From: a virus
Virus record (IMG/VR): IMGVR_UViG_3300045972_000230
Span: 1-43,310 of that record
DNA length: 43,310 nucleotides
Direction: 5' to 3' (one strand)
How positions within the stretch are numbered: position 1 is the stretch's first letter; every line of letters begins with the position of its first letter. This document shows, piece by piece, positions 39,061 through 42,891 of this stretch. The notes beneath the pieces were generated by a model. It had not been told where the DNA came from and searched no databases. It saw nothing but the letters and a program-made list of their open reading frames with translations. Made by a program: the position numbers and the translations under genes.

Positions 39061-39248
39061 GCGACCGATGCCCCACGACCTCCGGCCCGCACCGCTGCGA
39101 GCGCCCCGCGGGCCACGCTCCGCCGTGCGAGACCTCCGCGCCGGAGTACGCCACGCGCCAACGGACGACCGAGGAGCGGATCGCGATCTTGGAGGCTCAG
39201 GTGCAGTCGCTCCAGATGAGCGCGCCGAAGGGGATCGATCATGGGTGA
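39057..39248 (+). CDS. Small Cys/His and coiled-coil protein
   Basis: The ATG at 39057 (ATGA overlap) gives 63 aa. The N-terminal 30 residues carry three Cys and two His (DRCPTTSGPHRCERPAGHAP, then PCETS), enough for one metal site. A short coiled coil follows (TTEERIAILEAQVQSLQMSA). The function is unknown; the end overlaps the DUF5131 gene by eight bases. Confidence 0.6.
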   Translation: MSDRCPTTSGPHRCERPAGHAPPCETSAPEYATRQRTTEERIAILEAQVQSLQMSAPKGIDHG

Positions 39249-40092
39249 GAACAGCGCAATCGCCTGGACCGACCACACGTTCAACCCGTGGTGGGGATGC
39301 TCGCGCGTCTCGCCGGGGTGCGAGAACTGCTACGCCGAGACGCTCGCCACGGTGCGTCGCAAGCTCCCTGTCTGGGGCGTCGACGCCGAACGCAAGCCGA
39401 TGAGCGAGGCCTACTGGCGCGAGCCGCTGAAGTGGAACCGCAAGGCCGCGGCTGAGGGGGTGCGCCGGCGCGTCTTCTGCGCCTCGATGGCGGACGTCTT
39501 CGAGACGCCTCCCGAGCGCAACGAGCAGGCGTGGACGGTCATGCAGAGCGCGCGCGTGCGCCTCTGGAGGCTCATCGAGGAGACGCCCGCCCTCGACTGG
39601 CTGCTGCTCACGAAGCGGCCGCAGAACATCACGCAGCTCGCGCCGTGGGCATCACCGCGCAAGGCCATGGCGAAGGTGTGGCCCTCGAACGTGTGGCTCG
39701 GGACGACGGCCGAAGATCAGCAGCGGTACGACGAACGATGGTCGATCCTGTCGAGGGTCCCCGCCGCGGTCCGCTTCGTCAGCCACGAGCCGGCCCTCGG
39801 CCCTATCGTGCTCCGGTCGTTCTCGGGGTTCGTGGGCCGCGATCAGCCCGACTGGGTCATCACCGGCGGCGAGAGTGGACCGCGCGCGCGACCCTACGAT
39901 CTCGCCTGGGGCCGCGGCGTGGTCGAGCAGTGCCGCGCGTTCGGGATCGCCGCGTTCGTCAAGCAGCTCGGCGCCGACCCCATCGACGGCGCTGCAGGGT
40001 GCGAGGTCATGCAGCGGCACGCCAAGGGGGGCGACCCCGCCGAGTGGCCCGAGGAGCTCCGCGTCCAGCAGTTCCCACGGTCCGCATCATGA
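39241..40092 (+). CDS. Phage Gp37/Gp68 family protein (DUF5131)
   Basis: The 283-aa protein shows the clear family start: SAIAWTDHTFNPWWGCSRVS, then PGCENCYAE with Cys20, Cys27 and Cys30. FCASMADVFE, WLLLTKRPQNI, NVWLGTTAEDQ, RFVSHEPALGPI and VITGGESGPRARPYDLAWGR follow. The Cys trio near the N-terminus and barrel-like repeats suggest a metal or iron-sulfur site. The enzymatic role is not established. It is common as an accessory gene in phages and plasmids. Confidence 0.9.
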   Translation: MGENSAIAWTDHTFNPWWGCSRVSPGCENCYAETLATVRRKLPVWGVDAERKPMSEAYWREPLKWNRKAAAEGVRRRVFCASMADVFETPPERNEQAWTVMQSARVRLWRLIEETPALDWLLLTKRPQNITQLAPWASPRKAMAKVWPSNVWLGTTAEDQQRYDERWSILSRVPAAVRFVSHEPALGPIVLRSFSGFVGRDQPDWVITGGESGPRARPYDLAWGRGVVEQCRAFGIAAFVKQLGADPIDGAAGCEVMQRHAKGGDPAEWPEELRVQQFPRSAS

Positions 40093-40952: not shown

Positions 40953-41168
40953 ATGACAAAAGCAGGACCCTGCCCCGGCGATCGGTACGTCGAGACCCGC
41001 CCCCTACCGTGGCCCCCTCGACGGTTTTACGAGGTCCAATGGGTCGACGATCACTTTGTGGGTTGCGCCTGCGTAAACGAAGGCTTCGAGGGGAGCCCGT
41101 GCACCACTCGCATCGGGCTAGCGAAGTTCCTTGACCGCATCGCGACGGGTAACCTGAAGAAATTATGA
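40953..41168 (+). CDS. Hypothetical small protein before integrase
   Basis: The ATG at 40953 gives 71 aa (TKAGPCPGDRYVETRPLPWP, then RRFYEVQWVDDHFVGCACVN). There are four Cys in all, and the end is FLDRIATGNLKKL. Its stop overlaps the integrase ATG (ATGA), suggesting coupled translation. An excisionase would fit the position, but no HTH is evident. Confidence 0.55.
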   Translation: MTKAGPCPGDRYVETRPLPWPPRRFYEVQWVDDHFVGCACVNEGFEGSPCTTRIGLAKFLDRIATGNLKKL

Positions 41169-42592
41169 CGCGCCGCCCCAAGGGATCCGGGACCATCGAG
41201 AAGACGCGGGACGGTCGCCACCGAGCACGCTTCGCGTTCGACGGGAAGCACCGCGAGGACATCGACGGTTCGCCGTTCGCCACTCGCCCCGACGCCGCAC
41301 GCGCGCTCGACGTCCTCCTCGCCCAGCTCGCCGCCGCCCCCGTCGCCGGGATCTCGCTCCGCAAGCTCGCCGAGCGGGCCCTCGACCACCGCGAGCGCGA
41401 CGGGTTCCGCGCGATCGACTCCGATCGCTCGGTCTGGCGTGCCTACTTCGAGCCCTGGGACCTCGCGAGCGAGCCCGCGAAGACGATCACGCGCGGAGAC
41501 GTCCGCGAGCGCCTCGCAGCCATCCGTAGCCGGGCAGGGAAGCCGCTCGCCGGGCAGACCCGCCGGAACGCTCGGAACGTCCTCGCCGCGATCTTCGCGT
41601 TCGGCGTCGACGCCGAGCTCCTCGAGGAGAACCCGTGCCACGGCCTCCGGGTGAAGGACCGCGGGACGTCGCGCGAGACGTCGACCCACCTCTCGCGCTC
41701 GGAGGCCGACGCGCTCCTCGCCGCCGCCGCGCGGACCGGGCTCCTCGAGCACACCGCCGTCGCCGTCGCCCTCGGGACGGGCGTTCGGTCCGGGGAGCTC
41801 CGCTCGCTCCGGTGGGAGGACGTGCACCTGGACGGCGCGAGCCCCGAGATCGTGATCCGGTTCGGCGCGCCGGAGAAGCCGACGAAGAACGGCAAGATCC
41901 GACACGTCCCGCTCTTCGGGGTCGCGCTCGATGCGCTCCGCGCCGCGCACGCTCGCAAGGACGGCGCGCTCGTCCTGCCGCGCCCCGCCGTCGAGAGGAA
42001 GACCCGGTCGAAGGCGCCGCCGGGCGCCGCCAGGTACCGCGCCAAGGGCCGCGTCGTCGAGCCCGCGTCCTGGCGCGCCTGGAAGCTCGCCGCGGGCATC
42101 ACGCGCCCCGTACGCTGGCACGACCTCAGGCACACCGCCGCCACGCTCCTCCTCACCGGCGGATGGGGCACCGCGCCTTGGAGCTACGAGGCCGTCAAGG
42201 ACATGCTCGGCCACTCGTCGGTCAAGGTGACGGAGCGGTACGCCAGGAGCGGCTCCCTCGCGTCGTCCGCCGTCGCCGCGATGACCCCGCCGCCGAAGAA
42301 GCCGCGCGCCCATAAGCCCAAAACAAGCCCGCAGCCCGACGCGGAAATTGTGACCCAAGCCCGCGATATCATTGAGAGGTGCAGATGGGATTTGAACCCA
42401 CATATGCCGGTTTTGCAAACGGTACTAGAACCGAGCGATCCCGCGAGCTTGGGTCACGTTGCGGGCTTGGTGCGGGCTTATGTTGCCGCCGTCGCCGTCG
42501 GTGACCCGTTCGCGCACCGCCACGGCCTCGACCTGGCCGCCGCCGTCCTCGAGCTCGGGCGCCATGTAGCGACCCCGGCGAGGGCTGGATGA
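41165..42592 (+). CDS. int: Tyrosine recombinase (integrase) with attP in its 3' end
   Basis: The 475-aa protein starts at ATG 41165 (ATGA overlap). An arm-binding N-terminus (KGSGTIEKTRDGRHRARFAF) and a core-binding domain precede the catalytic residues. These are GTGVRSGELRSLRW (Arg208), PTKNGKIRHVPL (Lys241), WHDLRHTAATLLL (His319, Arg322) and MLGHSSVKVTERYA (His350, Tyr359). After residue 360 comes a Pro/Lys linker. From residue 405 the codons run through a tRNA-Cys-like attP core and on for about 55 more residues. Integration would replace everything after the core. It inserts and probably excises the prophage. Confidence 0.92.
   Translation: MTRRPKGSGTIEKTRDGRHRARFAFDGKHREDIDGSPFATRPDAARALDVLLAQLAAAPVAGISLRKLAERALDHRERDGFRAIDSDRSVWRAYFEPWDLASEPAKTITRGDVRERLAAIRSRAGKPLAGQTRRNARNVLAAIFAFGVDAELLEENPCHGLRVKDRGTSRETSTHLSRSEADALLAAAARTGLLEHTAVAVALGTGVRSGELRSLRWEDVHLDGASPEIVIRFGAPEKPTKNGKIRHVPLFGVALDALRAAHARKDGALVLPRPAVERKTRSKAPPGAARYRAKGRVVEPASWRAWKLAAGITRPVRWHDLRHTAATLLLTGGWGTAPWSYEAVKDMLGHSSVKVTERYARSGSLASSAVAAMTPPPKKPRAHKPKTSPQPDAEIVTQARDIIERCRWDLNPHMPVLQTVLEPSDPASLGHVAGLVRAYVAAVAVGDPFAHRHGLDLAAAVLELGRHVATPARAG
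42314..42479. other. attP region: tRNA-like core with inverted arm repeats
   Basis: The core is at 42377-42420. To its left, GTGACCCAAGCCCGCG begins at 42350. To its right, the same sequence occurs inverted (GCTTGGGTCAC at 42447-42457), 15 of 16 bases matching in the extended repeat. AAGCCCGC also occurs at 42325-42332 and 42357-42364, and its complement at 42461-42468 and 42472-42479. Another AAGCCC lies at 42314. Such symmetry around a tRNA-derived core is the expected layout of integrase arm sites. Confidence 0.8.
42377..42419 (-). other. tRNA-Cys 3' half (attP core identity block)
   Basis: Read on the minus strand, it starts in an anticodon loop TTGCAAA (anticodon GCA, Cys). It continues ACCGG, a five-base variable loop CATAT, T-arm GTGGG-TTCAAAT-CCCAT, acceptor CTGCACC and then T, the usual discriminator base of tRNA-Cys. 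The 5' half and the matching anticodon-stem strand are absent. This is therefore a fragment copied from the host attB, not a functional tRNA gene. Confidence 0.8.
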
Positions 42593-42891
42593 CCGAGGGG
42601 CCGACCCTTCAGACGTTCGCTGGGCCGTCGGCGCTCGTCGTCGTCGTCCAGGGGTCGACCTCGACCAGCTTCTACGTTCGCGCGGAGCGGTGCCTCTCGT
42701 TGCTCGAGCCGCTCGCGCCGATGCTCGCCCCCGGCGTCTCGCTCCACGTGTACGCCAGCGACGCGCGCGGGTGCGCAAGCGATCTGGCGTGGTCGTTCAC
42801 GCGCGCCAGCTTCTCCGCCGAAGCACGCCCGGACCGCCCACGAGGGAACCCGGCGCAGGCGGTCCTGGCCTACTACGGCTCGTCGCCGTAG
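42589..42891 (+). CDS. Hypothetical protein after integrase
   Basis: The ATG at 42589 overlaps the integrase stop (ATGA); the product is 100 aa. Strands and helices alternate (SALVVVVQGSTSTSFYVRAE, then RCLSLLEPLAPMLAPGVSLH and VYASDARGCASDLAWSF). It has no known motif. It ends inside a hairpin shared with the oppositely directed lysin gene, overlapping it by 19 bases. In a prophage it would be separated from the integrase. Confidence 0.6.
   Translation: MTEGPTLQTFAGPSALVVVVQGSTSTSFYVRAERCLSLLEPLAPMLAPGVSLHVYASDARGCASDLAWSFTRASFSAEARPDRPRGNPAQAVLAYYGSSP
42873..42891. terminator. Bidirectional hairpin at convergent gene ends
   Basis: CTACGGC-TCGTC-GCCGTAG is a perfect 7-bp stem with a 5-base loop. 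Each arm contains the TAG stop codon of one of the two converging genes. There is no T tract on either side, so it is an atypical intrinsic terminator. Its position exactly where the two convoys meet supports a role in stopping both. Confidence 0.5.

Follow-up and report, generated by a model that had tools for sequence, protein, structure and literature searches.

An att site inside the element's own integrase gene has been described for very few elements (PMC4701971). In the case closest to the locus studied here, that of Mx8, integration swaps 112 C-terminal residues of Int for 13 (Tojo 1996; Magrini 1999), as related in PMC4701971 and PMC6070905; there, the Mx8 prophage integrase is said to be less active (PMC4701971) or to have an altered site specificity (PMC6070905). 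SSV-type archaeal integrases also carry the att site in int and have their gene interrupted by integration, which severs an N-terminal part from the catalytic domain with loss of the enzyme, and a review holds self-disrupting recombinases to be exclusively archaeal (PMC8371274). Streptococcal ICEs residing in rumA share with our locus an att site in the integrase gene and a C-terminus that differs after excision, but their enzyme is a serine integrase and their target a protein gene (PMC4701971).

We analyzed a 43,310-bp viral genome (IMG/VR record IMGVR_UViG_3300045972_000230), the whole of which is referred to below as the window. A 127-bp direct repeat at its termini indicates a circular, complete phage genome, and the phage genes include those for a tail sheath, a tape measure, a head protease, a terminase, and a helicase. 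Near one end of the window, an open reading frame (ORF) on the plus strand (41165 to 42592) encodes the 475-aa phage form of a tyrosine integrase (int), which matches PF00589 at residues 176 to 362 (E 1.9e-19) and the phrog_1 integrases (E 3.6e-48). The domain carries the R...HxxR...Y residues of tyrosine recombinases, with an HDLRH box at residues 319 to 323 and the catalytic Tyr at position 359 (codon 42239 to 42241, plus strand), a column in which Tyr is aligned in 62 of 63 integrases. Starting about 46 codons past Tyr359, the frame reads antisense through a 43-base tRNA-Cys(GCA) 3' half (42377 to 42419, minus strand), which extends from the anticodon loop to the discriminator base; T419 is the last core codon, and 56 further codons follow. 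On the minus strand, this core, TTTGCAAAACCGGCATATGTGGGTTCAAATCCCATCTGCACCT, has the anticodon loop TTGCAAA (GCA, Cys), a T-arm paired at 5/5 bp, and an acceptor strand. ARAGORN found no complete tRNA in the window, and the core is thus half a gene, as an attP should be; since the genome is circular, the site in int represents attP rather than a prophage junction. An initial annotation had placed attP inside the integrase gene. The int ORF spans the core, which confirms this placement, and the coordinates and counts given for both were right.

The window resembles Mx8 in having a tyrosine integrase with attP inside its own gene, in reading a tRNA 3' end antisense past the catalytic Tyr, and, as predicted for the window and related for Mx8 in the sources above, in the replacement of a long C-terminus by a short one. 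It differs in its target, tRNA-Cys, and in its tail, which is half as long. With a probability of about 0.82, we read the window as an Mx8-like self-editing integration module at tRNA-Cys, in which loss of the tail would make integration self-limiting until excision is induced.

The tRNA core is centered between two pairs of inverted repeats, both within the int ORF, which we consider putative arm-type sites. The outer pair (42311 to 42340, plus strand, and 42453 to 42482, minus strand) spans 30 nt with 24/30 paired, a value reached by 0/60 dinucleotide shuffles; the inner pair (42350 to 42370, plus strand, and 42437 to 42457, minus strand) spans 21 nt with 18/21 paired, a value reached by 1/60 shuffles. 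Inverted arms of 17 to 27 nt with a spacing of 126 to 137 nt also surround the core in four relatives (L002, L007, L010, and L011), and none were seen around the core in L014, L019, and L126. Short ORFs overlap int at both of its ends through ATGA, and family searches with either returned no match. The upstream ORF (71 aa; 40953 to 41168, plus strand) overlaps the int start and is a possible accessory factor. The downstream ORF from the ORF list (100 aa; 42589 to 42891, plus strand) overlaps the int stop and, because of this overlap, is probably translationally coupled to int in the phage form and parted from it in the prophage, in agreement with the earlier proposal that integration would disconnect the downstream gene. 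Further upstream (39241 to 40092), a gene adjoining an exonuclease VIII-like gene encodes a 283-aa protein with a strong match to phrog_2045 (E 8.5e-77), a family of unassigned function.

No prophage of the window's own phage was found in the genome collections searched, and the exact 43-bp core was not found in the viral collections or the GTDB contig collection; the C-terminal swap for this exact phage is therefore a prediction. The tRNA-Cys of two other Myxococcota genomes matches the window core at 39/42 bases, and in-silico fusion of the window int to their tRNA-Cys 5' halves produced a frame of 421 aa ending in ...VLQTGA*. The window prophage integrase is thus predicted to have 421 aa, versus 475 aa in the phage, and to keep the catalytic Tyr, while the phage-only tail, residues 420 to 475 (42422 to 42589, plus strand), would be exchanged on integration.

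Relatives at tRNA-Cys provide both sides of this exchange. The closest element in a scan of Myxococcota genomes is in G451, where a 36-kb phage contig, placed there by binning, carries an int 59% identical to that of the window. The core is again that of tRNA-Cys, read in the same frame as in the window (...CGWDLNPHMSVLQT), and a tail follows it. The genome also carries a complete tRNA-Cys elsewhere, which has exactly 45 bp in common with the G451 attP core and flanks unlike those of the phage site; it represents an empty attB. In G471, one contig carries an int that belongs to the subgroup of the window int and ends within the core, and a second contig, whose overlap with the first is exactly 141 bp, runs on into a complete tRNA-Cys; the int frame across both contigs ends in ...MTVLQTVA*. 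This int aligns to the window int over residues 280 to 418 only and may for that reason be a decayed copy. An exact, fixed-length overlap between contigs is a typical trace of a de Bruijn assembler at a fork. Because the 141-bp overlap is exact, as at such a fork, integrated and nonintegrated junctions may coexist in the G471 sample. The two contigs, at the end of L173 (G471:C233) and the start of L191 (G471:C167), part at the tRNA-Cys core in the manner of an assembly-graph fork.

Related elements at other tRNA genes were found by a scan of Myxococcota genomes, and both ends were recovered in seven of them (G017, G346, G378, G002, G411, G485, and G427). When the ends were joined in silico, int acquired a tail of about 46 to 115 aa that is exchanged by integration: in all seven, the circular form has the long tail, and the integrated form has a different int end. 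In-silico removal restored a complete tRNA in 4/4 elements tested, tRNA-Thr in G017 and G378 and tRNA-Arg in G346 and G002. Of these, G346 is a prophage of 42.7 kb in which genes for a terminase, a major head protein, a sheath, and a tape measure are present. The integrated int of G017, G378, and G346 gains five residues from the host (RCSTN or RCSIH) before it stops in the tRNA 5' half, and the host-coded end of G002 is longer; G411, G485, and G427 are like the others with longer host-coded ends, and the int of G427 reads its tRNA half in sense. A shorter, host-derived C-terminus of the Mx8 type is thus found at tRNA-Cys in G471 and in the reconstructed elements. The initial annotation had held that integration rewrites the integrase C-terminus at tRNA-Cys and had proposed to look among prophages of this group for an int ending differently at a tRNA-Cys(GCA) gene. 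The int of G471, which is of the window's type, does so; a match of the host tRNA to the core is seen in G451, exact over 45 bp between the tRNA-Cys and the attP of this close relative of the window; and the rewriting is borne out in relatives by G471, G451, and the seven elements.

Other candidates gave no such exchange. In G333, both ends are present, but the int stop precedes the tRNA, and no swap occurs. For G480, G385, G071, G144, G076, and G455, a second element end was not found in the stretches examined. L008 and L010 were rejected as a natural prophage/phage pair, since phage-like sequence is also present beyond the tRNA in L008. In that locus (L089, 7334 to 7407), a complete tRNA-Trp overlaps the int end, and phage-like sequence is found again 1.3 kb beyond; L008 could be a phage that has acquired host DNA, or it may have arisen by a double insertion or as a mosaic.

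In a tree of catalytic domains, the window int falls within a 44-row clade (support, 100/99) whose rows are not all independent of one another. A tRNA 3' half or a tRNA lies within the int ORF, past the catalytic Tyr, in 38 of these 44 integrases, and the targets comprise genes for at least seven kinds of tRNA (Arg, Thr, Gly, Lys, Asp, Trp, and Cys). The layout is absent from six clade members (L016, L018, L022, L105, L130, and L137); among L105, L137, L016, and L022, the tRNA is just past the int stop or there is no site in int. Since several clade members are without a site inside int, loss of the layout is possible. A tRNA site within int is missing from all 13 viral outgroup integrases of the tree, and outside the clade the layout was seen in Mx8 and the neighboring rows L119 and L121. 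The distance from the T-loop to the stop separates the two forms: most integrated forms have 8 to 15 codons, three whose frame continues through the tRNA have 34, 42, and 47, and circular forms have 48 to 111, so that the ranges do not overlap. The site inside int apparently is the rule in one clade of Myxococcota integrases. As side observations outside the clade, the site inside the int of L119 (G003:C89) resembles a tmRNA 3' end, and the integrase gene of L113 (G003:C261) is just upstream of a tmRNA gene.

The Mx8 host belongs to the same phylum as the clade hosts. Mx8 Int itself is distant from the clade (HMM score, 92 versus over 345 for the clade) and lies outside it on the best tree, although its union with the clade is not rejected (AU p, 0.287); the tails have no detectable similarity. 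The arrangement itself was known from Mx8. Its commonness in a clade that the best tree separates from Mx8 is new, as is the finding that the tail is under selection. The clade and Mx8 represent a bacterial arrangement related to, but milder than, that of the SSV-type integrases, the review of which calls self-disrupting recombinases exclusively archaeal (PMC8371274).

With a GC content of 69.5%, about one random frame in three runs for 56 codons without a stop; the open frame alone is thus weak evidence, and the case for the layout is based on its recurrence in relatives and on protein-level selection on the tail. In three pairs, the tail has pN < pS, with bootstrap fractions with pN ≥ pS of 0.002 or less (window/L002, 0.002; window/G451, 0; L002/G451, 0.001), and the other frames are closed by stops. 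Between the window and L002, dN/dS is 0.33 in the tail and 0.42 in the body, such that constraint on the tail is no weaker; tail dN/dS is 0.17 for L014/L019 and 0.22 for G017/G378. Tails that have a close relative for comparison evolve as protein, under purifying selection. A profile built from four tails scored G411, L011, G346, L014, and G485 above most shuffles; many other clade tails failed to beat shuffles, and a single universal tail family was dropped. As a sole query, the window tail had no confirmed relative. AlphaFold modeled it with low confidence (pLDDT about 55 to 59) as two helices (residues 426 to 444 and 448 to 468) that are preceded by a disordered linker.

It is conceivable that the layout is a structural by-product: compactness would account for the position of attP near the end of int, the tail would simply be P' arm DNA with a frame left open by chance, and either integrase end would function equally well. 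The 1-in-3 chance of an open frame, the tails of many clade members that cannot be aligned with each other, the DNA arm sites in the tail region, and the loss of the overlap in some clade members are all consistent with this explanation. We nevertheless consider it unlikely, as amino acid constraint on the tail codons is similar to that on the body, the tail remains open over 46 codons or more in the circular forms of the set, and the tails of L007 and the window are more alike (46% identical) than their bodies (36%) despite different target tRNAs. A doubtful reading gives the tail a function of its own, as an RDF-like or regulatory peptide that is joined to Int in the phage and that, in the prophage, is released, expressed anew, or silenced at attR. 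The tail is modeled as a discrete, probably helical unit behind its linker, it is under selection, and integration physically parts it from int; against this, no start site or promoter is established for a free peptide, and the tail has no family match and a fold of low confidence. That int is a "suicidal" integrase of the SSV type, split by integration to leave a prophage with no active enzyme, is highly improbable and already disfavored by its anatomy: although attP is inside int and the gene is disrupted, as in PMC8371274, the SSV site is N-terminal and parts that portion from the catalytic domain, whereas here the site begins about 46 codons, and the break falls 60 codons, past the catalytic Tyr, and the Pfam family is PF00589, not that of SSV.

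Under the self-editing reading, the circular phage would make the 475-aa integrase, with its tail of ~56 aa coded beyond attP, and this enzyme would recombine the attP tRNA-Cys 3' half with the host tRNA-Cys, a step evident from the sequences of relatives and inferred for the window phage. The tRNA-Cys would stay whole because the phage supplies the 3' half. The integrated int would then run antisense into the tRNA 5' half and stop in the D-arm after about 2 host-coded residues, giving a prophage integrase of ~421 aa that should keep every catalytic residue; the other prophage end would receive the tail codons along with the coupled gene downstream of them, and excision would bring back the long integrase. 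Because the prophage form retains the catalytic Tyr and every core residue, integration would alter the enzyme rather than destroy it, and the window phage, unlike SSV-type elements, should keep catalysis. To judge by Mx8 and by the selection observed here, the tail is most likely a protein module needed for or favoring integration. By analogy, its loss would lower integrase activity and make integration self-limiting until excision is induced. The suggestion in the initial annotation that the swap could limit integration or control excision likewise leans on Mx8.

The recurrence of this layout at many tRNA genes in myxobacterial viruses and islands suggests a built-in integration switch. More tentatively, the whole Myxococcota phage and island clade might have a directionality device built into its integrases, namely a C-terminal module that is under selection and can be exchanged, with a long, integration-competent phage copy and a prophage copy cut short by an antisense D-arm stop codon, whatever the target tRNA. 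The recurrence of the layout in 38 of 44 integrases of one clade, at no fewer than seven kinds of tRNA and with the exchanged part under protein-level selection, turns the question of whether integration sets integrase activity into a comparative and directly testable one, since natural long and short forms are available in many elements.

In G017:C8, G378:C149, G411:C241, and G485:C14, int and its tail are found in elements of only about 5 to 13 kb, and elements of this size with such an int may be phage satellites or small islands. The stretch examined around G378:C149 (L154) has three copies of the tRNA-Thr core, at 760, 9241, and 10389, and two candidate tails with a mutual identity of 72% beside one int, and probably represents related elements in tandem. 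An 850-aa ORF in L127 (G245:C11), a fusion made at the att site, has three components: an integrase of the clade, a tRNA 3' half that is in sense orientation, and a long C-terminal part of unrelated sequence.
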